A DNA stretch of 41,791 bases. Origin: a virus. Below are positions 24,776-38,217 of the stretch, one piece after another. A program made the translations under genes and the position numbers. The notes under the pieces were generated by a model that searched no databases, was not told the origin of the DNA, and saw only the letters and a list, made by a program, of their open reading frames with translations. The first letter of the stretch is position 1; every line of letters begins with the position of its first letter. The DNA lies in IMG/VR virus record IMGVR_UViG_3300037143_000045, positions 1-41,791 of that record; one strand, written 5' to 3'.

Positions 24776-25333
24776 GTGGGCGGGTTCACAATCCAAATCG
24801 AGGGCTTGCGTGAGCTCGATGCGAAGCTCAGCGAGATGAAGGACTCTCAGATCAAGCGAGTAATTCGTCACGGGCTCGATGCCGGTGGCGAAGCGATGAG
24901 GCGGTCCATTGCCGAAGCGGCGCCAGAGAGGCCGGATCTGCCCAGCGGCGACGCGCTCCCGGCCGGAGCCATGAAGCAGGACATTGAAGTTCGACGCGGG
25001 CGATTCGAGGGGCTGCTGGCTGTGTTTGTGGGGCCGGGGAAGTACACGCGACGCCAGGCGGGATGGGTTGAATACGGTCATCGGCTGGTGCGCGGCGGGA
25101 CCTCCCAATTGAAGAGGACGATCTTCGGAAACGTGAAATATAAGGGCCCGGGCTCGGAGGTGGGTGAGGTGAAAGCTCACTCTTTCATCCGTCTGGCCTA
25201 TGAAGGGTTTCGCGAAGAAGCGGTGCAGGTGGCTGTCGATACGATGCGGCGGGATGTCAAGCTGGGCGCGGTGCCAAGTTCCGTCTACGAAGGGCGTGGG
25301 GCGGAAGACAACTACACCGGGGAGGACTACTGA
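24776..25333 (+). CDS. HK97 gp10-like tail/neck protein
   Basis: The product is 185 aa with a GTG start and GGAGG at good distance. It has IEGLRELDAKLSEMKD at the N-terminus, then IRHGLDAGGEAMRRSI, VGPGKYTRRQAGWVEYGH and a final HSFIRLAYEGFREEAVQVA, the order found in HK97 gp10-family proteins. In most HK97-like phages this gene lies between head closure and tail completion; here it is displaced behind the chaperones and cargo genes. It overlaps the tape measure start by one base. Confidence 0.82.
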   Translation: MGGFTIQIEGLRELDAKLSEMKDSQIKRVIRHGLDAGGEAMRRSIAEAAPERPDLPSGDALPAGAMKQDIEVRRGRFEGLLAVFVGPGKYTRRQAGWVEYGHRLVRGGTSQLKRTIFGNVKYKGPGSEVGEVKAHSFIRLAYEGFREEAVQVAVDTMRRDVKLGAVPSSVYEGRGAEDNYTGEDY

Positions 25334-27894
25334 TGGCCGAGGCGGGCAGTGTAAAAATCATCTTCGCGGCAGATGCGACCAGCTACAGTGCCGCGCTGTC
25401 CTCGATGCAAAAACAGATGGACTCGTTCGCCGCCAAAGCCGGGGCGGCGGGGCGGAGCGGCGCGGCTGCCGGGCATGGCATGGTTGCGCCCTGGCAGGCC
25501 TCATCGGCCGCATTGCGTGTTGCCGAAGGCAACATGACGAACAATATCCGCGCCGCGGAAAGGTTCCTCGCCACGATTCCTGGAGTGGGCCGCGCGTTGC
25601 AGGTGGCCTTCCCGGTTGTCGGAGCCGTCGCCCTTCTGGGCGTATTTGCGCGAATGGGCAACGAGGTTGTGGACTTCATCAAGAAGACGAACAGGATCCC
25701 GCAGGCGCTGGAGACTGCCTTTCGGGAATCGTTGCTGAGTGGTCAGTCGGCGGCCGACGAGCTCCAGAAGGAGAACGATGCCCTCGACAATCAAATCGCG
25801 AAGCTCGAGGGACGGCCGCAAAACAATCTGGCCACGGCGATCGACGACGCGCGTATCGCGGCCGATAAGTTGGAGCAGTCGCTCATGCGCGACAATCGCG
25901 AGATTGCGGAGCTGCTGAAGCAGAACCAAATTGGGTCGCTCGGCGAGCTGCTCACCGGTAAGGGGCGAACGACGGCCGTCGCGGGAGACGTCAACTACTG
26001 GAATCAGGAGCTGGCGAATAAGGCGAAGGATTTCGACAAGGCGGTGCACGCATTCGGACCGGACAGTGTGCAGGCGAAGTCGGCGCAGACTGCACTCGCA
26101 CAGCGGCGACAGGCGGCGGAAGCCAACATGCAGATGGAGATCGACGTTCGCAAGCCCAGCCCCGACCGTGCGGCGAACATTACCGGCGACCAGGACCCGA
26201 ATCTGAACATCGCCCAGGGCTATCTCGCGATTCTGCAGCAGCAGGACAGAATGGACAGCCTGAGCGGGCAGCACGAGCAGAAGAAAAGCGTTGCGGATGC
26301 GCTGACCCACGCGCGCGAGCTACAAGCCGCGGCAAAGGAGCGCGGTGCTCAGCAAATGCAGGCGTGGGAGAAAGAACTTTCGGAGCAGAAGTCGAAGCAT
26401 GTCATGAGCCTCGACGAGGATGCAGATTTTTGGCAAAAGCGTGCCGACAGCGTGACGAAAGGCTCAATGCTGTACACTGACGCGCTGAAAAAGGCAAATG
26501 ATTTGCGTGCCGCGAGTCAGGTCCAGTATCAGCAGGAGTTCACCGGAGACGTGATCGAGAAGATGCGCTCCGGAGAAGCGGGCGACTCGTCGAGCGATCG
26601 CGTGCACGCCGCGCTGCAGGAGCAGTATGTCGGCGACGACACGCACGAGCGAGAGATCAAACGCCAAACGGAGGAGGGCGCCACGCGCGCCTTCGCTGCG
26701 GCCGAGCAGCAGCGCAAGGCGGCGGATAGCCTCGCGGAGGAAGCGATCCGGCTGCAGGAGCAGAGCGGGCAGCTCTCCCGCGCCGGCGCCGCGCAGGCCC
26801 TGATGACGGTCCATCAGGAGAGCTTTGCGAACTGGTCGGCGGCGTCCGCCTCGTTCTCGGCGCAGTTCCCGAATCTGGCCGTGCCGGGCGCGACGCAAGC
26901 CCTGCAGGAGTACGGGAAACAATCGCAGCAGGATGAAGCCGCGCAGGAGGCCACAACCTCGCTGGGTGCGCTGCGCGAGGCGACGGATCGCATGACGCAG
27001 GCCTTCACGGATCTGCCCGCGCACCTGACGCAGCTGATGACGAGCGCCATCAGCGGCTTCAATGAGGCGTTCTCCAGTGCGGTCATGGCGCACACCACGA
27101 GCGGCGTCGAGTATCGCCGCGGGATCACGAATGCGGTGGGTGGCCAGTTCCGCTCGCTGGGCGCAAAGGGCCTCGATTCCGCGTTGCAGATGGGCGAGGG
27201 CGGCCTGATGTCGAAGCTCGGCTTTGGCAAGTCGAAGCCGACCGGGACGCAGTCCGATCCGCTTTTTGTAAGGTTGATCGCAGCAGCGGGCGCCGCCGGC
27301 GGAACTCTCGACAGCACGGGAGCTGGGTCGCTGCTGCTGAGCGCGCTGGGCGCATCGGGTCCCGCGGGCACCACGGGCAGCAGCAAGGGCAGCTTCCTCT
27401 CCACGGTGCTGCCGGCGCTGACGCAAATGATTCCGCACCGCGCCTCGGGCGGTCCGATTCCGGCGAATACGCCGGCGATCGTCGGCGAGAATGGGCCGGA
27501 GCTGTTCATGTCGAGCCGGGCCGGTCACATCGTGCCCAACAGTGCGCTGGGCGGCGCGCTCTCGAAAGTGCTGCCGGCGCTGACGCATATGATTCCCGGC
27601 TTTGCCTCCGGAGGCCCGATTCCGTCGAACATGCCGGCGATCGTCGGCGAGAACGGGCCGGAGCTGTTCATGCCGGCGAGCTCCGGGCGCATTGTGCCGA
27701 ACGGAGACTTCGGAGGCGGCGCCGGCGGTGGAGACACGCACGTCCATGTGGACGCGCGCGGCGCGCACGATCCAACCGCGACCGAAGCCGCCGTGCATCG
27801 CGCCATGAAGTCGTACCTGCCGCACCTGGACGCGCGCACGATCGCCACGGTGCGGGCCTACAACAAGGCGCGGCCGGGAACGGCGCGACTGTGA
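25333..27894 (+). CDS. tape measure protein
   Basis: The product is 853 aa. It has an N-terminal variable part, a hydrophobic stretch (about residues 90-112, VGRALQVAFPVVGAVALLGVF), long helical coiled-coil regions rich in Q, A, E and R, and a glycine-rich C-terminus. The C-terminus carries two 54-residue repeats with ASGGPIP and AIVGENGPELFM, a common ending of tape measures. At about 1.5 angstrom per residue the tail would be near 130 nm. The order after the chaperones agrees. Confidence 0.92.
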   Translation: MAEAGSVKIIFAADATSYSAALSSMQKQMDSFAAKAGAAGRSGAAAGHGMVAPWQASSAALRVAEGNMTNNIRAAERFLATIPGVGRALQVAFPVVGAVALLGVFARMGNEVVDFIKKTNRIPQALETAFRESLLSGQSAADELQKENDALDNQIAKLEGRPQNNLATAIDDARIAADKLEQSLMRDNREIAELLKQNQIGSLGELLTGKGRTTAVAGDVNYWNQELANKAKDFDKAVHAFGPDSVQAKSAQTALAQRRQAAEANMQMEIDVRKPSPDRAANITGDQDPNLNIAQGYLAILQQQDRMDSLSGQHEQKKSVADALTHARELQAAAKERGAQQMQAWEKELSEQKSKHVMSLDEDADFWQKRADSVTKGSMLYTDALKKANDLRAASQVQYQQEFTGDVIEKMRSGEAGDSSSDRVHAALQEQYVGDDTHEREIKRQTEEGATRAFAAAEQQRKAADSLAEEAIRLQEQSGQLSRAGAAQALMTVHQESFANWSAASASFSAQFPNLAVPGATQALQEYGKQSQQDEAAQEATTSLGALREATDRMTQAFTDLPAHLTQLMTSAISGFNEAFSSAVMAHTTSGVEYRRGITNAVGGQFRSLGAKGLDSALQMGEGGLMSKLGFGKSKPTGTQSDPLFVRLIAAAGAAGGTLDSTGAGSLLLSALGASGPAGTTGSSKGSFLSTVLPALTQMIPHRASGGPIPANTPAIVGENGPELFMSSRAGHIVPNSALGGALSKVLPALTHMIPGFASGGPIPSNMPAIVGENGPELFMPASSGRIVPNGDFGGGAGGGDTHVHVDARGAHDPTATEAAVHRAMKSYLPHLDARTIATVRAYNKARPGTARL
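27406..27729 (+). repeat. 162-bp tandem repeat in the tape measure gene (2 diverged copies)
   Basis: Copies start at 27406 and 27568 with GTGCTGCCGGCGCTGACGCA. Each encodes VLPALT-x-MIP, ASGGPIP, then PAIVGENGPELFM and IVPN. The copies are clearly related but differ at many positions, so the duplication is old. Confidence 0.85.
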
Positions 27895-27959
27895 GGCTTT
27901 TCGTCGTTGGACGAGCACTTTACGTTCACTGCGCCAGACAGGGCGCGCGAAACACAACA

Positions 27960-27990
27960 ACAGCTCCGCTCACCGCGGGGCTGTTCTTTT
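27960..27990 (+). terminator. rho-independent terminator after the tape measure gene
   Basis: ACAGCTCCGC (27960-27969) pairs with GCGGGGCTGT (27975-27984), with one T-G wobble, followed by TCTTTT. It separates the tail assembly genes from the first fibre gene. Confidence 0.8.
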
Positions 27991-28004
27991 GGGGGAGATC
28001 TCCG

Positions 28005-30740
28005 ATGAAACGCTGGATTCCTGGCGCGCTCGCCGCGCTGCTGCTGCTGCCGTGCGCCCTCGCGCAGACGGGCTACGTGACGATGACGGCGGCCAATCTG
28101 ATCGACCAGAGCGGCGGCGGAGCCACGATCACGAATGCGACGGCGACGTTCTGTCTCGTGAATGCCGGCGGCACGCCGATCGGCGTGCATATCGGTTCGA
28201 GCTCCGGCGGCCAGGCCGCGCCCCGCTGTTCGTCGGGCCCGGTGAATAACGGCGCGCTGGTTGGGACGTGGCAGGCGGCCGACCCCACCGCCGCGGGCAC
28301 GAATCTGGTACCGGACCCGATCCTGACGAGTTGGACGACGTGGTCGAATCCTGGGGCGGGCTGGAGCATTCAGCCAGGCTCGGTAGGGCTGGCGGGCGTC
28401 AATTTCTTCCAGTTAAACACGTCCGCGAATGGCACGAACGCGTATTCGCAGTCTGCTGCGATTACGGTGGTTCCAGGGCAGACCTATACGTTCACGGGGT
28501 ATATGAACGCCCTTGATGTCACTGCTGGCAGCTTGTATTGGCAGGTGTGGGCCGAAGGTTCGGGGACGCAGTTGGGCGCGGTTGCGGCCACGCTGGGTGC
28601 GGTGGGGGGTTATTACACTGTCCAGTTCACTGTGCCGAGCGGGGTGACATCCGTTCTGGTGCGAGCCGTGATCAACTCGCTGGCGATTACGTCCGGTAAC
28701 ACCGCCGCATTCGCGGCACCGCTGCTGCAGGCCGGCAGCGCGCGGCTCGTCGATACCAACCTCAGCAACCCGCAGAATCCCTGCTATCAACTCACGGTCA
28801 CCGACAACACCAGCGGCAGCGTCCTGCTGGGCGGACCGGGATCCGGGTACAGTTGCCTGCAGCCGCAATGGACGGAAAGCTCGCCGATGAGCTGCGTCGC
28901 CGGCCTCTGCAACCTTGACAGCTATATCCCGACGACTACGCCCGGGGTGATGATCGGGCTCGCCGGGCCAGTGGGTCCCACAGGGGCCACAGGGGCAACG
29001 GGGGCGACTGGAGCGACTGGGCTATCCGGCTCTGTCTCCGCTGCGGGGTCGGCTGGAACTGTGCAAACATCCAACGGCGCGGGCGGATTAAGTGCGGCAA
29101 CGGTTGCGAACCTGGGCGCGGCTCTCTCCGATTCGAACGGGAATTATGTCCTGAATCGCTCTCCGACGTGGCCGATTAACAGCCTTCAGTCCGGGGCGGT
29201 GCTTCTCGGTGGCGCGTGCCCGCTGTATGGCAGCGGATCGCCAACGGCTGCCCAGGAAGGCGTGATTTGTATTGGTTGGCAGGCGGGGCAAAACCTGCTC
29301 TATGCCAACGGGAGTGTGTACATCGGCAATGATGCCGGGCAGTTTAAGGTAGGCTCAGCAAGCCTGGGCGGTGAAGATGGCAACATGACCTGCGTAGGTT
29401 CCTTCGCCTGTCAGGCGGACACTACCGGCGCAGAAGACGTTGTGTACGGGATGAAAGCCTATGAATTCGGCACGGGTGAGAACAGCAGCGTAATCATCGG
29501 AAACCACAACTACTACGAAGGCGGCGGGACCGATAACATCGACATAGGTTCGACGATTGCAGACTGGGCCAACACAGCCGGTACAAACACTACATTCCTG
29601 GGAGGCACGAACAACGTCAACCTGGGTTCCCAGCTGTTTGCGGCCACCGGCCTGACCCCGAGTACAACCTATGTCGAGACGCAATCGACGGTTGTAGGGT
29701 CCGGCGCGGGAGGCTGCCTCTTTAACACGGGTCCCAATCTTCTGTTGGGCGCTGGCGTGGCTGGGCCAGACAACGCCAGCGGTCTAGGTTCCCCATATCC
29801 GTGCACGGGCACACTGCCAACTGCACAGTACAACATCTTCATCCAGCCCGGGCCGAATGGGACAAACCCTAATGTAGGGCATTCCATCACAACAGGGTCC
29901 GCCAACATCGCGATGGGAACCGGCGGTACCTCAAACCCCTGGGGCGTCCCCGGTTCAGCACTGACGAGTGGCAACGGAAATACGATCCTTGCCGCCGGAG
30001 CTGGGGCAAATGCCACGACAGCGAGCTGGCTGTCTTTGTATGGCATGGAAGCAGGGAGTGCACTGACCACGCCCAGCGGCATCAGTGCTTTCGGCGCGTG
30101 GGCACTCTATCGCTTGCAGACGGGCACACAGGACAGCGCCTTTGGGTTCCACGCCTGTGATGCGGCCACGGGCAGCGAGTCGCAGGATACCTGCCTTGGT
30201 GACACTGCCAATATTGTGGCAGGAGCGTCCAGGGCAACGGTGATTGGCCAGGCGGCCACAGCTGCGTATCAGAGCCTGGTCCTGGGGTACAGTGCATCAG
30301 ACGCGGGCAGCAACGGTACCAATGTTGTGATCGGATATTATGCCGCGTGCACAGGTTCCGGTGAGCAATACAACACCATCCTGGGTGGCTCCTGCTCGGG
30401 CACTGGGACACAATATTCCCTCGCTTTAGGCTCTCATTCGGTTGTAGCAGCATCCGATGCTACGGAGATCAATGACAGTGGAGCTACAGCCACCAACAGC
30501 ACCCAGCACACGCTCCAGTATGACTCGTGGAATTTTCTGACGAGCAGCGGAGCAGCCACCTTTCTAACTGCCACGATCACCGGGGCCGCGCCCAGCGTCA
30601 CCACGGGGCAGCTTGGCATCGGCAGCAGCACGGTCACGACGGCGACAGCGGGAGCCGCCACGCTGCCCGCTAACCCACTAGGCTTTTTAACCTGGAATCT
30701 CGCCGGTACCGCCGTCAAGGTTCCGTACTACAGCAACTAA
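28005..30740 (+). CDS. exported collagen-like tail fibre / adhesin 1
   Basis: ATG 28005 has GGGGGAG upstream. The 911-aa product starts with a Sec signal peptide (KRW, then [14 protein letters not shown]). An N-terminal domain is shared with the second fibre gene and is split by an insert of about 145 residues (100-246) that looks like a CBM4/9-type jelly roll (NLVPDPILTSWTTW ... VVPGQTYTFTGYMNA). A collagen-like stretch of 8 Gly-X-Y triplets follows (28956-29030). The long C-terminal part has YadA-head-like repeats (ATVIGQAATAAYQSLVLGY, YSLALGSHSVVA). It may be a receptor-binding fibre or a surface adhesin of the lysogen. Confidence 0.75.
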   Translation: MKRWIPGALAALLLLPCALAQTGYVTMTAANLIDQSGGGATITNATATFCLVNAGGTPIGVHIGSSSGGQAAPRCSSGPVNNGALVGTWQAADPTAAGTNLVPDPILTSWTTWSNPGAGWSIQPGSVGLAGVNFFQLNTSANGTNAYSQSAAITVVPGQTYTFTGYMNALDVTAGSLYWQVWAEGSGTQLGAVAATLGAVGGYYTVQFTVPSGVTSVLVRAVINSLAITSGNTAAFAAPLLQAGSARLVDTNLSNPQNPCYQLTVTDNTSGSVLLGGPGSGYSCLQPQWTESSPMSCVAGLCNLDSYIPTTTPGVMIGLAGPVGPTGATGATGATGATGLSGSVSAAGSAGTVQTSNGAGGLSAATVANLGAALSDSNGNYVLNRSPTWPINSLQSGAVLLGGACPLYGSGSPTAAQEGVICIGWQAGQNLLYANGSVYIGNDAGQFKVGSASLGGEDGNMTCVGSFACQADTTGAEDVVYGMKAYEFGTGENSSVIIGNHNYYEGGGTDNIDIGSTIADWANTAGTNTTFLGGTNNVNLGSQLFAATGLTPSTTYVETQSTVVGSGAGGCLFNTGPNLLLGAGVAGPDNASGLGSPYPCTGTLPTAQYNIFIQPGPNGTNPNVGHSITTGSANIAMGTGGTSNPWGVPGSALTSGNGNTILAAGAGANATTASWLSLYGMEAGSALTTPSGISAFGAWALYRLQTGTQDSAFGFHACDAATGSESQDTCLGDTANIVAGASRATVIGQAATAAYQSLVLGYSASDAGSNGTNVVIGYYAACTGSGEQYNTILGGSCSGTGTQYSLALGSHSVVAASDATEINDSGATATNSTQHTLQYDSWNFLTSSGAATFLTATITGAAPSVTTGQLGIGSSTVTTATAGAATLPANPLGFLTWNLAGTAVKVPYYSN

Positions 30741-31490: not shown

Positions 31491-32132
31491 ATGCAGACCA
31501 TCACCATCAACGGAACCAGCTACGGGCTGGTGACGATGCCGGCGTCGCCGGGTCCGGCCGACATCGAGATCGGCTGGAACGATCTCGTCACCCTCATGGC
31601 GTCGCCCTACACGCTGCAGCAGCAGGTGCTGCAGTGGCCTGGCGCCGACTGGTGGGATGCGAAGATCACCCTGCCGCCAATGGCGACGGCCAAAGCGGCG
31701 CCCTGGGAGGCCTTCCTCGCCGAGCTGCGCGGCCCGTTGAACGTCTTCAAGCTCGCCGATCCGCGCCACATGAAGCCGTTGGGGTCCGCCCTCGGCGTGC
31801 CGAAGATCGACAGCGGCACCTATGCGGCGACGACGTCGACGATCGGCACGACTGGCTGGCAACCCGATCAGGCGCGCGTTCTGTTGCGCGGCGATCGCTT
31901 CCAGCTCGGCTACCGCCTGCATATGGTGGTGGATTCCGATGTCAGCTCCGACAACAGCGGCGCCGCGACCATCTCCATCTGGCCTTCGCTGCGCGAGGCG
32001 CCGAGCGCCGGCGAAGCGCTGATCCTGAAGTGTCCGAAGGGACTGTTTCGCCTGCCGCAGGGACGCCGCTCGCTGCAGGCTTCGCCGCGCCGGCTGACCA
32101 CGCTCGGCTTTGCGGCGCTGGAAGTGAGGTAA
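31491..32132 (+). CDS. distal tail-type protein
   Basis: The product is 213 aa. The pattern PYTLQQQVLQWPGADWWDAK followed by ITLPPM, AAPWEAFLAELRGPLNVFKL and later FQLGYRLHMVV, ISIWPSLREAP, GLFRL occurs in tail proteins encoded between the tape measure and the tail tip protein of siphoviruses of Gram-negative bacteria. It probably forms part of the tail tip ring. One-base spacing to the next gene. Confidence 0.75.
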   Translation: MQTITINGTSYGLVTMPASPGPADIEIGWNDLVTLMASPYTLQQQVLQWPGADWWDAKITLPPMATAKAAPWEAFLAELRGPLNVFKLADPRHMKPLGSALGVPKIDSGTYAATTSTIGTTGWQPDQARVLLRGDRFQLGYRLHMVVDSDVSSDNSGAATISIWPSLREAPSAGEALILKCPKGLFRLPQGRRSLQASPRRLTTLGFAALEVR

Positions 32133-32133
32133 G

Positions 32134-32697
32134 ATGCCCCGCGATCTCGATGCAACCCTGGCCGCCGACATGGCGGGGCCCAGCTTTGCTCCGGTCGTGC
32201 TGGCGCAGTTCGGCTTCCGCTCGCAGACCATCGGCGCATGGAGCGGCCCGGGCACGCTGACATGGAACGGGATGACCTTTCTGGGCATCGGTACGCTGGG
32301 CAAAATCGGCCCGATCGGCTCCGGCACGGCCGAGGTGATGGAAAACGCGGCCTACGTCGAGATGTCCGGGATCGACGAGACGATGCTGGGCGAAGCACTG
32401 ACGGACTGCCAGCCCAATGGCCCGGTGAAGATCTGGATGGGCTCGTGGCAGAATGGCGCGCTGCACGGCACGCCGTATCTGCTGTGGCAGGGCACCATGG
32501 GGCAGCCGCAGGCGGTTCCCGATCCGGGTAAGTTCACCCTCCGGCTGGGGCTGCAAACGAAGATGGCGCAGCTCTCGCGCCCCACCTGCCGGCGCTATAC
32601 GGCAGCGGATCAGCGGCTCTACTACCCCGACGACTCGGCCTTCAACTGCGTCGAAATCCTCAACGACATTGCTCTGATCTGGGGCCAGGCGACCTAA
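32134..32697 (+). CDS. tail tip-region protein (DUF2163-like start)
   Basis: The product is 187 aa. It has a beta-rich build with GPGTLTWNGMTFLGIGTLGK, SGIDETMLGEALTD, PVKIWMG and a C-terminal LSRPTCRRYTAADQRLYYP and IALIWGQ. These blocks match minor tail proteins placed just before the NlpC/P60-like protein in lambda-like tail modules. It should form part of the baseplate-like tip. Confidence 0.75.
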   Translation: MPRDLDATLAADMAGPSFAPVVLAQFGFRSQTIGAWSGPGTLTWNGMTFLGIGTLGKIGPIGSGTAEVMENAAYVEMSGIDETMLGEALTDCQPNGPVKIWMGSWQNGALHGTPYLLWQGTMGQPQAVPDPGKFTLRLGLQTKMAQLSRPTCRRYTAADQRLYYPDDSAFNCVEILNDIALIWGQAT

Positions 32698-32702
32698 ACA
32701 AG

Positions 32703-33212
32703 ATGACCTCTCCCGTTGTTGCGAACGCGCATGCAGCCAGCGCGGCGAAGAAACTGGTGCGCGCCGAGCACTGGGCAACGCGCGCGTACCACACTTTTCT
32801 GGTCGAGCGCGCGCGGCAGCCGTTTGCCTGGGGCACGAACGACTGCGCCACCTTTGCCGCCGACGGTATCCTCGCGCTCACCGGCGTCGACATTGCCGCC
32901 GACTTCCGCGGAAAGTACACCGACGAGACCTCGGCGCTGTCTGCGATCCGCGCGATCGCCGGCGGGGCGACGATTGCGGACGCGGCGGCATGGTGCGCGG
33001 CGAAGTTTGGGCTGCCGGAGTGGAAGTATCCGCTGCTGGCGCAGCGCGGCGACCTGGTTGTGTTCACAGCGCCTGCGGAGGAGGGACAGCCGCAGCTGCA
33101 GTCCGGGCTCATCCACCTGACGGGCGCGCACGTCGTGGCGCCGGGCGCGAAGGGCTGGCACCTGATGCTGATCGGCAAACACGCGCAAATCGTAAGGAGC
33201 TGGCATGTCTAA
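32703..33212 (+). CDS. tail peptidase-like protein (NlpC/P60-like; DUF6950-type)
   Basis: The product is 169 aa. It has PFAWGTNDCATFAADGI (C near residue 55), the cysteine motif of papain-like phage proteins in this slot, and a later His-containing stretch, IHLTGAHVV. It stands exactly where lambda encodes its NlpC-like tail protein, before the J-like gene (8-bp overlap). It may cut cell-wall peptides during DNA injection. Confidence 0.75.
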   Translation: MTSPVVANAHAASAAKKLVRAEHWATRAYHTFLVERARQPFAWGTNDCATFAADGILALTGVDIAADFRGKYTDETSALSAIRAIAGGATIADAAAWCAAKFGLPEWKYPLLAQRGDLVVFTAPAEEGQPQLQSGLIHLTGAHVVAPGAKGWHLMLIGKHAQIVRSWHV

Positions 33213-36200
33213 GGCTCTGGCCGGCGCCTCCATGCTCGGCGCGGACGCGGCCCTGTGGGGGATCGCGACCGTGATGTCCGGGGGCTTCGCCGCGGCCATG
33301 GCGCCCTTCGTGAACGCGCTGGTTACGCCGCTGCTCGCCGGCGGCGTCAGCATGGAGGCGGGCGCGATCGCGCAGGCGCTGACGCAGCAGCGCGGCATGA
33401 ACATCACCACGCGGCAGCCGGCGCAGTACCGCCAGATCGTGTACGGCACGCAGCGCGTGGGCGGCGTGATCGTCTACCAGTCGACCACCGGCGGCAAGCA
33501 TGACCAGTTCAACATGGTCATCGTTCTGGCGACGCATGTGATCGAGGCCATCGAGAACCTCTATCTGGACGGCCGTCAGGTGTTCTGGAACTCCGGCACC
33601 GGCAACACCACGCGGAACGGCTACAACTTCGGCGGATCCGCGGCGACCGGCGGCGGCATCGACGGCGACGGCACCTACATCGGGCCCAACGGACAGCACT
33701 ACAACTTCGGGACGCTGGTCTACTGCGAGGCGCGCTTCGGCGACCAGGCGCAGGACGATGTGATTGGCGCCCTGACGGCCAACGACATCGCCTGGGCCAC
33801 CGGCGCGGCGGGCTCGCCCTGGCTGGGCGGCTGCGCCTATGTCTACCTGAAGGTCGAATACGACGCGGCGATGTTCCCGCAGTTTCCTGAGATTCGGTTC
33901 ACGCAGCACGGCAAGAACGACATCTACGATCCGCGCACCGGGCTCTCCGGCTACAGCAGCAACGCCGCCCTCATCGTCAACGACATCCTGAGCGGGCCCA
34001 CCTTGGGCCTGGGCGATACGACGGTCAACCAGGCGCAGCTGATCGCCGCGGCCAACGTCTGCGACGAGACGCTCGCCTGCGCCCCGACGACGGCGTATCC
34101 GGCGGGATCGCTGACCGAGGCGCGCTATGCGGCGGCATGGCACTACGACACCTCGACGCCGCCGGGCGAGGCGATCAAGGTTTTTCTGCAGGCGATGGAC
34201 GGCCGCCTGTCGCGCACCGGCGGCGAGTGGTTCCTCTGGCCGGCGTACTATCAGGGTCCGACAGCGACCCTCGATGAGAACATCCTGCTGGCGCCCCCGG
34301 AATGGCTGCCTTATCGCGAGCCGGACAAGCTGATCAACCGGGTCAACGGCACGTACATCGCGCCGAACTACCCGTACAACATCGCCGGAGACCTCTACGA
34401 CGCCAATGGCTGGTATGACGGCTCGATCCAGAACAACTTCCCCTTCGCTTTTCAGCCGACGAATTTCCCGCAATACGCGGCGGATTATCTGCACGGCTAC
34501 GCCAGCGACGACTACCTGAATCAGGACTCGGGAGCTGTCAGCAGCTGGAGCTCGACGGCGGCCTACGCGGTGGGCGATGTGGTGCTCTACGGCACCGGGA
34601 CCTCGCAGATCTATCGCGCGATCGCCGCGAGCACCAGCGTCGCGCCCTTCTCCGCCGCCGTGATCTGGAACCCGCTCACCGCCTATACCACGGGCGCGCA
34701 GGTGAGCTGCAACGGCACGCTCTACACGGCGCTGGCCGCGAGCACGGGAGCCGCGCCGGGGACCTCGCCCAGCGACTGGCAGCCGGCGCCATGGATTCCC
34801 TACAGCAACCAGCTGCCGCTCGAGCTGGAGCTCAAGGCGGTGCTCTCCGTCTCCCAGGCGCAGCGGCTGGCCAAGATCGAGTTGCTGCGCAACCGCTGGC
34901 AGGGCACGGGCTCGCTGAAGATGAAGATCGCGGGCTACGCGCTGCAGGCGATGGACACCTTCACGCAAAACTTTACGCCGTTCGGCTGGACGGGCAAGCT
35001 GCTCGAGGTGGCCGGCGAGCCGCAGTGGGCCCTCGAGGGCGGCGAGGTTGACAACGACGGCAAAGTGCAGTCGCCGCCGCAACTGACGGTGACGGTGCCT
35101 GTGGCGGAGACCGATACCACGGTGTACGAATGGTCGATCAGCGAGGAACTCACCGTCTACGACGTGCCCACCACGGTGAATCAGGCGCCTTACATCCCTG
35201 CGGCGCCAACGGCCATGTCCTGCACCTCGGGCGCGTCGACCGCCGTGCAGGGCGCGGACGGCGTGGTGATCCCGCGGGTGCTGGTGGAGTGGACCGATCC
35301 GCTGGACGTGTACGTCACCCAGATTCAGGTGCAGTACCGGCTGAACGGGACGACGCAGTGGATCCAGTCGCAGAACGTCGCCGTGGGGCTGGGGCAGGCC
35401 TACGTGACCGGCGTGGTGTCGGGGCTGGCTTATGACTTCCAGATCCGCTCGCTGCGCGCCAACGGCGCGACATCGGCCTGGACGCAGCAGCTGAATTACA
35501 CGGTGAGCCTGTCGCTTTCCGTCTCCAGCACCAGCGGGCAGCCGGTCGCGCCCGCGGGCACGCTGGTGGCGCAGGCGCTTTCCGGTGGCGGCGCGCAGAT
35601 TTTAGTCGCGGCCTTCAGCTGGACTCCCGCCGGCACGACGCTTTATTTCACGCCCAGCCCTTCCACGATCACCGGGCTGGCGCAGGGCCAGACGTACTAC
35701 GTGTACTTCGTCGATCCGAGCTTCGCCGGCGGCACGATCGTGCCGATCGCCACGCAGAATGTAGCCGACTTCCAGAACAAGATCGGCTATCTGCTCATCG
35801 GAACGATCATGACGCCGACCTACACGCCGCTCTATCGGCCGACGAGCTTCAGCGATGTCGGCGCCCAGACGAGCCTGGGCCCGGCATACGCTTACGACGG
35901 CAACATCTTGACCTCGGCGCTGGTTTCCGGAAACTGGAGCTATTTCTACTCCACGATGGAAACCTATCTCGGTGACTGCATCTGGAGCGGTTTCCCGGCC
36001 ATCGCGCTGGCCGCCGCGGCGAACCTGAACGTGACGCTGCAGCCGCTGGGTCCGGGCGGGTCGAGCGGGACCACCGGCGCCATCACCGTGATCGCGCATG
36101 TGGGCGGAACGTCGACGACGCTGGGCACCTTCACGGGCGCTGCCGCGACGCAGACGCTGCAGCTGAGCCTGCCCTCGGGAACGAATCTGGGCACGGTGAG

Positions 36201-36894: not shown

Positions 36895-38217
36895 ATGAGG
36901 AACATCAGGGAGGTTTCGATGCAACGCTGGATGCTGGGATACGCGCTCGCCGCGCTGCTGCTGCTGCCGTGTGCCTTTGCGCAAACGGGCACGGTGACGG
37001 TGTCCGCCTCGGGGTTGGTCAAGTACACGCCGGCGGGAGCGACGCCGCTCGACAATGCCACGATCACCTTCGCGCCGACGACGGCCGCCGGCGCGCCGAT
37101 CGCGTATCAGATCGACGGCAACGGACAGGCGATGGATCTGCCGACGTCGGCGCAGGTGAGTGGCGGCGTGTTTTCGGTCATGCTGCCTGACACGAACCTC
37201 ACTTATCCGCAGAACGTCTGCTTCGCGATCACGATCACCGATAACAACAGCGGCAACGTGCTGCTGGGAGGGCAAAATTCGGGGTATGGCTGCGTCCAGC
37301 CGGCATGGAATACAACGACGCCGAACACCTGGTGCCAGAGCGGCATCTGCAATTTCGATCAGTATCCGCCCACGTCGAGCGCAATCGCGCTGCTGGCGAC
37401 CGGGCCAACCGGACCCACTGGAGCTACAGGCCCAGCGGGACCCACCGGACCCACGGGCTTGACAGGGGCTGCGGGAACTAACGGCACGAATGGAGCGACA
37501 GGGGCCACGGGTCCAACCGGAGCAACAGGCCCCACAGGCCCAACGGGTGCGGCTGGTCCTAACAGTGTGAGCACGAGCACCACCACGACACTCACGGGGC
37601 TGCTCAAGGGCAACGGGGCGAATGTCGGCGCGGCCACGGCGGGCACAGACTATGCAACGCCCGGTGGTAATGTGGCGACAGCGACGGCTCTGGCCGCTAC
37701 TCCGGGTCAGTGCCCCGCAGGACAAATTGCCACGGGCGTAACGGCGGCGGGTACGGCGAATTGTACAGCAACGCCCACGGTGACGCAGTTAACGGCCACA
37801 TCGCCCACCGCGATCACGAACGCCAACTGCCTCGCGGCGACTACGGTGAGCACGCCATGCGTGGCGTATCAGGGGACGTTTACCGCTCAAGGGTTGTCGG
37901 GTGGAACTGGGACAATCACGCTTTATACCTCTAACGCTCCGGCAAACGCAACGTTTCAATTCTGTCCCGAAATCTATCTCACTACAGCCGCCTCAACCGC
38001 AACGTTGATTTCCAACGGAAGCTGGACCAGTCCTGGGGGGGCTGTCATCACAAATAGGAGTTTCACTTCAAACGGCGCTACCCCCGTCGGGCTGATTTCC
38101 GTTGCTTGCTTCGATTTCACGGTGAAGGCAAATACTTCAGCAACCCTCTCAGTCTTCGCATCGGGGAGCGGCTCTCCGGTCTGGGAGACGGAGCCGGTGG
38201 TCATCCGCCTGCACTAA
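36895..38217 (+). CDS. exported collagen-like fibre / adhesin 2
   Basis: Two starts are plausible: ATG 36895 (after GAGGAGGAAGGG) and ATG 36919 (after GGAGG), which matches the first fibre's start better. A Sec signal peptide ([20 protein letters not shown]) is followed by an N-terminal domain homologous to fibre 1 ([27 protein letters not shown]) but without its insert. Then come 18 Gly-X-Y triplets (37402-37563, mostly GPTG, GATG, GPAG) and a beta-rich C-terminal head with three conserved Cys. It may be a receptor-binding or surface protein; the shared signal peptide argues against a purely cytoplasmic assembly route. Confidence 0.75.

Follow-up and report, generated by a model that had tools for sequence, protein, structure and literature searches.

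The window, that is the whole stretch of DNA analysed (41,791 nucleotides; positions 1 to 41,791 of IMG/VR virus record IMGVR_UViG_3300037143_000045), carries a tail gene region in the order tape measure, distal tail protein (Dit), tail protein, small protein and J (Table 1). The same order is found in phage Seurat. In Roseobacter phage CRP-406 the region around J is arranged as in Seurat, except that an unnamed gene occupies the Dit position, and a DUF6950 gene adjoins the 5′ side of the matching tail protein; in Loki an additional gene separates Dit from the tail protein. An integrase, a large terminase, a major head protein and a ParB-like protein are also encoded, so that the window reads as a temperate phage. 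Two tail-region ORFs (27891-30740 and 36895-38217) have a secretion-signal-like N-terminal stretch and a collagen-like stretch, features that are unusual for phage tail genes, with Pfam Collagen over its cut-off in 36895-38217 only. The C-termini of ORF 27891-30740 vary strongly among relatives, and its counterpart in one of them (L003, 1631-1723; L-numbers denote loci used for comparison) includes a weak CBM5/12-like unit directly after GPTGPAGPG (17.3 / 12.5 bits, below cut-off).

A relative of the J gene was identified in a cell genome, that of Granulicella paludicola, whose best-matching segment is 57% identical. Among 200 genomes of the Granulicella family, J was matched in 18 and the terminase in 20 (at most 62% identity; G. 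paludicola itself is not one of the 20). These J and terminase relatives point to Acidobacteriota as hosts of the phage group, with the host of the window itself putative and probably a soil member of the Acidobacteria. They also lend indirect support to the argument of the initial annotation from hosts that produce exopolysaccharide.

Table 1 Features of the tail region and of the J-like hub protein in the window.
Feature	Position (nt)	Strand	Basis
Tape measure	25333-27894		window gene order
Extra ORF between tape measure and Dit	27891-30740		
Distal tail protein (Dit)	31491..32132	+	phrog_1302, E 1.2e-30
Tail protein 5′ of J	32134..32697	+	phrog_2048, E 1.3e-28
DUF6950 protein, immediately 5′ of J	32703..33212	+	PF22262, E 3e-28
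J-like tail-tip hub protein (baseplate hub / Tal), 1029 aa	33205..36294	+	phrog_5616 (tail fiber), E 2.7e-54; structure match to T5 pb3 / lambda gpJ
Conserved hub core 5′ of insertion, residues 70-441	33412..34527	+	pLDDT mostly 75-95; within T5 pb3 alignment; kept in relatives
Inserted segment, about 91 residues (about 444-534, approximate borders)	34534..34806	+	loop length compared with zero-unit relatives
CBM5/12-type unit 1, residues 448-487	34546..34665	+	CBM_5_12 17.4 bits alone; small HMM 28.9 bits; pLDDT blocks 81-89
CBM5/12-type unit 2, residues 488-527	34666..34785	+	CBM_5_12 30.2 bits alone; VIA Z 8.4 to 1wvv_B
Hub core 3′ of insertion, residues 537-643	34813..35133	+	strand then helix with QAQRLAK; QR conserved; T5 pb3 alignment to 643
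FNIII-like domain, about residues 664-770	35194..35514	+	many FNIII structures, Z 12-13, for about 662-771

The full-length AlphaFold2 model of J (mean pLDDT 75.9, pTM 0.53) was compared with solved structures using VIA, with Foldseek also run, and has the hub fold of T5 pb3 (VIA Z 22.3, 3.0 Å over 398 residues; aligned span 70-643), lambda gpJ (Z 21.0, 3.5 Å over 359 residues) and the RcGTA hub 6tba (Z 20.7). The initial annotation had assigned the protein as J-like, which the phrog_5616 match and this fold bear out. In the first hub core, pLDDT falls to only 34-37 at residues 391-410. The first ~60 residues (33205-33390) are hydrophobic-rich and modelled with low confidence as helices (pLDDT 51-67), and may be a fused gpI-like plug segment. 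By analogy with T5 pb3 and lambda gpJ, J presumably forms a trimer.

Between the two conserved hub segments, the loop stretch of J is 132 residues long in the window, compared with 41 in close relatives that have no unit, L005 among them. Matches of the window J to L004 and L005 break off at residue 441 and restart at 536-538, and the same gap is present in the alignment with L008 (a G. paludicola contig). In these alignments the pair of units forms an inserted segment of about 91 residues within a single hub loop, with variable copy number among relatives, an observation that is new here and absent from the initial annotation. In the model, a strand (417-424) and a short helix (436-441) precede the loop, and a strand (538-543) and then a helix (549-564) follow it. 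Profile alignment places the loop opposite about residues 424-436 of lambda gpJ, ahead of TSRGQAHR; this position is approximate, because with the window J as profile master no alignment to lambda gpJ extended beyond residue 399 and the loop was placed via CRP-406 and Seurat masters. As the loop tolerates zero, one, two or other inserts, it probably faces outward.

The loop sequences of 97 J-type rows, window included, were sorted into classes by visual inspection; the viral loci among these rows are the best 80 of at least 536 confirmed, and the count leans to near relatives. Zero units are found in 85 rows, one unit-like insert in six (L026, L030, L032, L040, L052 and L053), two units in four (the window, L002, L003 and L051, all with both junctions kept) and another insert in two (L041 and L078). 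Among rows whose first core shares at least 40% identity with that of the window (n = 28; viral rows again from the best 80 of at least 536), 19 have none, four one, four two and one another insert; among the remaining rows, below 40% (n = 69, from the same set), the corresponding classes are 66 with none, two with one and one with another insert. Altogether 100 rows were aligned, three of them (L034, L063, L108) without a readable loop. Repeats of another row or place were omitted (L001, with a J identical to that of the window, L042, L027, L025, L008, L050 and L065), and loci repeating a listed place or representing fragments were kept out of the alignment (L021, L024, L031, L035, L037, L043, L044, L045, L046 and L049); some near-identical rows remain in the count, e.g. 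L039 and L056. None of eight cultured phages picked from the listed matches (Loki, Halfdan, Pavpe01, PSA28, Seurat, CRP-406, psageK9 and 51E28.4) has a unit at the loop, which is a bare turn instead; in psageK9, CBM_5_12 matches weakly at another place, residues 687-725 (17.0 bits, below cut-off).

In L005, a close zero-unit relative, a separate hub loop (J residue 245/246) holds a different insert, about 225 aa long; this insert has no PDB sequence match at E 1, and the L005 protein has no Pfam match over cut-off. At the C-terminus of the J-like ORF of L004 (residues 1252-1361) there is a weak Hint-domain match (Vint, 19.6 bits, below the cut-off of 27).

The insertion consists of two adjacent units, opened by W448 and W488. 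The initial annotation had placed them at 34546-34788, corresponding to residues 448-528 of the J ORF, and its motifs W-x4-A-Y-x2-G-x2-V and Y-x-A-x-A-A-S-T are indeed present in both. Pfam CBM_5_12 (PF02839) matches the whole J protein in two stretches at 34.5 bits (E 2.1e-8; cut-off 26.2), in agreement with the CBM5/12 family originally proposed; when single units are scored, unit 2 exceeds this cut-off and unit 1 is below it. A small HMM, with three chitinase domains and four units from viral contigs as its members and J rows excluded, scores the whole insert at 68.5 bits and unit 2 at 52.4, compared with a best score of 11.1 for shuffled inserts (1999 reported of 2000 shuffles). Unit 1 of L003 and of L051 scores 16.5 and 12.9 bits with this HMM, and the six one-unit rows 18.4-37.8 bits. 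Whole-protein CBM_5_12 scores are below cut-off in L003 (25.7 bits), L026 (22.9), L051 (22.2), L052 (15.6) and L030 (13.3), and the whole-protein Pfam scan gave no CBM_5_12 match for L040 and L053 among the matches listed; unit 2 of L003 reaches 28.9 bits, over the cut-off, in a genome search.

In the full-length model, residues 441-530 have pLDDT blocks of 29-47. Folded alone with an alignment of 12 rows, residues 441-540 reach pLDDT 83.9 and pTM 0.69, and the CBM fold, left as a check by the initial annotation, was predicted. Unit 2 overlays on chitinase C (1wvv_B; 1.1 Å over 44 residues) and on a Chromobacterium violaceum chitinase (Z 8.2, 1.0 Å over 45 residues) with the small beta fold of chitin-binding domain type 3, chitinases heading its VIA list. 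Unit 1, modelled with pLDDT 81-89, would have the same fold, and is less sure than unit 2 because just three other rows of the fold input (L002, L003 and L051) cover it. For the pair, attachment proteins of the Agrobacterium phages Milano and 7-7-1 and chitin oligosaccharide deacetylases of Vibrio take the top 13 Foldseek rows (92-99 columns, rmsd near 10 Å). This points to an overall resemblance of the pair to known doublets, the mutual angle of the units being either different or badly predicted.

Exposed tryptophans, of the AKWWT type or the ChiA1 type, form the binding face of chitinase CBM5 and CBM12 domains. The AKWWT tryptophans are replaced in 17/17 aligned units (the three chitinase references aside), including both units of the window, and the ChiA1-type column holds W in none of the 17; in L030 and L032 a W occurs some residues past the aligned column. 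AKWWTQ is named as a ChtBD3 motif in one source (PMC6222997). With both types of tryptophan missing, the chitin-type binding face is absent, and chitin binding by the window units is not supported. Of the earlier interpretation, the family, the fold and the J-like protein thus stand, and the description of the motif as typical of chitin or peptidoglycan binding is not supported. Any ligand is probably something other than crystalline chitin or cellulose, because the canonical chitin-gripping tryptophans are missing. It is accordingly very improbable that the units are true chitin or cellulose binders with which the phage would stick to fungal or plant debris at the host site, or to a chitin-like coat, even with chitinase domains as the closest solved relatives by profile and chitinases leading the structural matches; a CBM5/12 match in a phage protein need not mean chitin binding.

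Related units are found outside J hubs. CBM_5_12 is over cut-off in viral ORFs of L150, L151, L153 and L135 and under it in L136; the first three also have tail or fibre matches, and L135 is an ORF of unknown kind. Scans of viral contigs gave seven loci when the insert was the query (known window relatives plus three others) and ten when the unit was (known relatives plus six others), with no J hubs among those of the additional loci that were inspected. A tblastn search of the insert against 50,697 phage records returned 11 at E 0.1, led by a protein of a Vibrio phage with 33% identity. Unit 2 also matches solved attachment protein chains of phages Milano, 7-7-1, A-1(L) and Pam1 (Z 5.2-7.3, a range in which VIA warns of a mere common arrangement). 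The similar fold lies at residues 75-117 of the Milano receptor-complex chain (8fqc), 73-116 of the 7-7-1 fibre chain (9rkv; chains of about 560-570 residues) and 136-183 of the A-1(L) fibre chain. In the 7-7-1 paper, residues 1-120 of the long tail fiber are termed anchoring; by chain length the matched chain is presumably this long fiber, and a match within the anchoring part favours a structural role. The main texts of the papers on Milano and 7-7-1 contain none of the words ‘carbohydrate’, ‘chitin’ and ‘CBM’.

Units adjoin collagen-like repeats in L152, L153 and L155. The insert profile matches 23 of 396 genomes of Acidobacteriota, and collagen-like Gly-X-Y runs are found in the unit-bearing ORF at 19 of the 20 bacterial loci fetched; in all four ORFs of these that were scanned, Collagen and CBM_5_12 are both over cut-off. 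The module is therefore at home in bacterial collagen-like proteins too, as far as such matches tell. ORFs in the Acidobacteriota genomes of L156-L175 carry up to at least eight CBM5/12-like units, some together with a CBM96 or TIG-like match.

These data give weight to a strong rival, possible but held tentatively, in which the units are structural beads or spacers that have no sugar ligand, compact swappable modules that would hold or space parts of the tip. It is consistent with the loss of the AKWWT tryptophans, with the place of the fold in the Milano, 7-7-1 and A-1(L) chains, in 7-7-1 presumably the anchoring part of the long fiber, and with the collagen-like repeats beside viral and bacterial units. 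However, 85 of the 97 J rows (viral rows from the best 80 of at least 536) are unit-free at the loop, so that the family does not need the units as spacers, and copy number ranges from 0 to 2. The occurrence of the module in bacterial collagen-like proteins also opens the prospect, unlikely as it appears, that the hub loop serves as a socket dedicated to such modules, with zero, one or two of them exchanged among phages of Acidobacteriota, and that the phage tip would grip the same extracellular matrix as is gripped by the host's own fibres.

The inserted segment is under selective constraint. Between lineages that are 63-65% identical in the insert, its dN/dS is 0.45 (window compared with L003) and 0.39 (with L051), compared with 0.18 and 0.23 for the first core segment and 0.38 and 0.40 for the second. 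Judged by these ratios the insert is constrained, yet no more than the second core segment downstream, so that this constraint is no particular argument for binding. A quick tree of 47 rows (root not inferred, the two rows with another insert omitted, 17 of 44 inner branches below 80) needs five changes between presence and absence of units. Such patchiness is as expected of a tolerated passenger, gained by recombination with fibre genes and adding nothing at present; the low dN/dS in lineages this divergent and the retention of both junctions in all four two-unit rows make this improbable.

In siphophages that infect Gram-positive bacteria, the ‘evolved’ Tal and Dit proteins are known cases of tail-hub proteins with inserted or added CBMs. 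Evolved Tals are described as harbouring two decorating CBMs in the gp27-like N-terminal domain (PMC7291167). A second source describes lysin domains as the insertion in the Tal N-terminal domain and puts the Tal CBMs in a C-terminal extension (PMC9437275), which makes the precedent for CBMs inside the hub core less firm. For streptococcal phages, both sources report that CBMs of Dit and Tal bind the host, and host binding is also reported for two CBMs of neck and tail proteins as GFP fusions (PMC6669499). The CBMs of evolved Tal and Dit have other folds (BppA-like, CBM4-like and others), whereas the window has two CBM5/12 units of ~40 residues, inserted between conserved segments in one loop of a lambda/T5-type hub and present in zero, one or two copies among relatives. 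The hub fold is common to the window J, lambda gpJ and T5 pb3 (PMC10721106, PMC11101478), and lambda gpJ also has inserted domains, a beta-sandwich (483-569) and FNIII-A (72-215) (PMC10721106); the window loop lies away from both, and its insert is CBM5/12. The chitin-binding domains of chitinase C (1wvv, 2d49), ChiA1 (1ed7) and the C. violaceum chitinase (4tx8) share the fold (unit 2, 35-44% identity over 41-51 residues), but carry the AKWWT or ChiA1-type tryptophans that the window units lack. In the attachment proteins of Milano, 7-7-1, A-1(L) and Pam1 and in L150, L151, L153 and L135, the similar fold or family match is in fibres, tailspikes or an ORF of unknown kind (L135), whereas the window units are inside a hub protein. 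CBM5/12 units in a loop of a J-type hub were not found in titles and abstract openings of the literature on CBM or ChtBD3 in phage tails, which included few subscription journals.

The reading preferred here, with confidence that is evenly balanced, is that the units are a CBM-style decoration of the hub for weak attachment to glycan, the binding being putative. Two folded CBM5/12-type units would be plugged into one loop of the J-like hub and, if J is a trimer, six units would be displayed at the tip beside the main receptor-binding part. Before J is committed to its receptor, they would contact a glycan on the host surface or in its matrix weakly and reversibly, as the CBM decorations of Dit and Tal are held to do. 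This is supported by the CBM_5_12 score over cut-off, the confident fold of the pair and chitinase binding domains among its closest matches; by the hub fold with zero, one or two units between conserved segments; by the dN/dS of the insert; by related units in fibre-like ORFs of viral contigs; and by the host binding reported for the Dit, Tal, neck and tail CBMs. The different insert in the L005 hub is also as expected of a decorated hub. Against glycan-binding decoration stand the tryptophans missing from every aligned unit, the low pLDDT of the insert in the full-length model, which leaves its orientation on the hub putative, the predominance of unit-free loops among the J rows compared, and the location of the fold near the anchoring end in solved phage fibres.

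CBM-decorated tail hubs are a known kind, of which the window is a CBM5/12 variant in a lambda/T5-type J. This extends the idea of the decorated hub to a J protein whose virus probably infects Acidobacteriota, and the zero, one or two units in one loop form a natural series that would allow a direct measurement of the use of such decorations.
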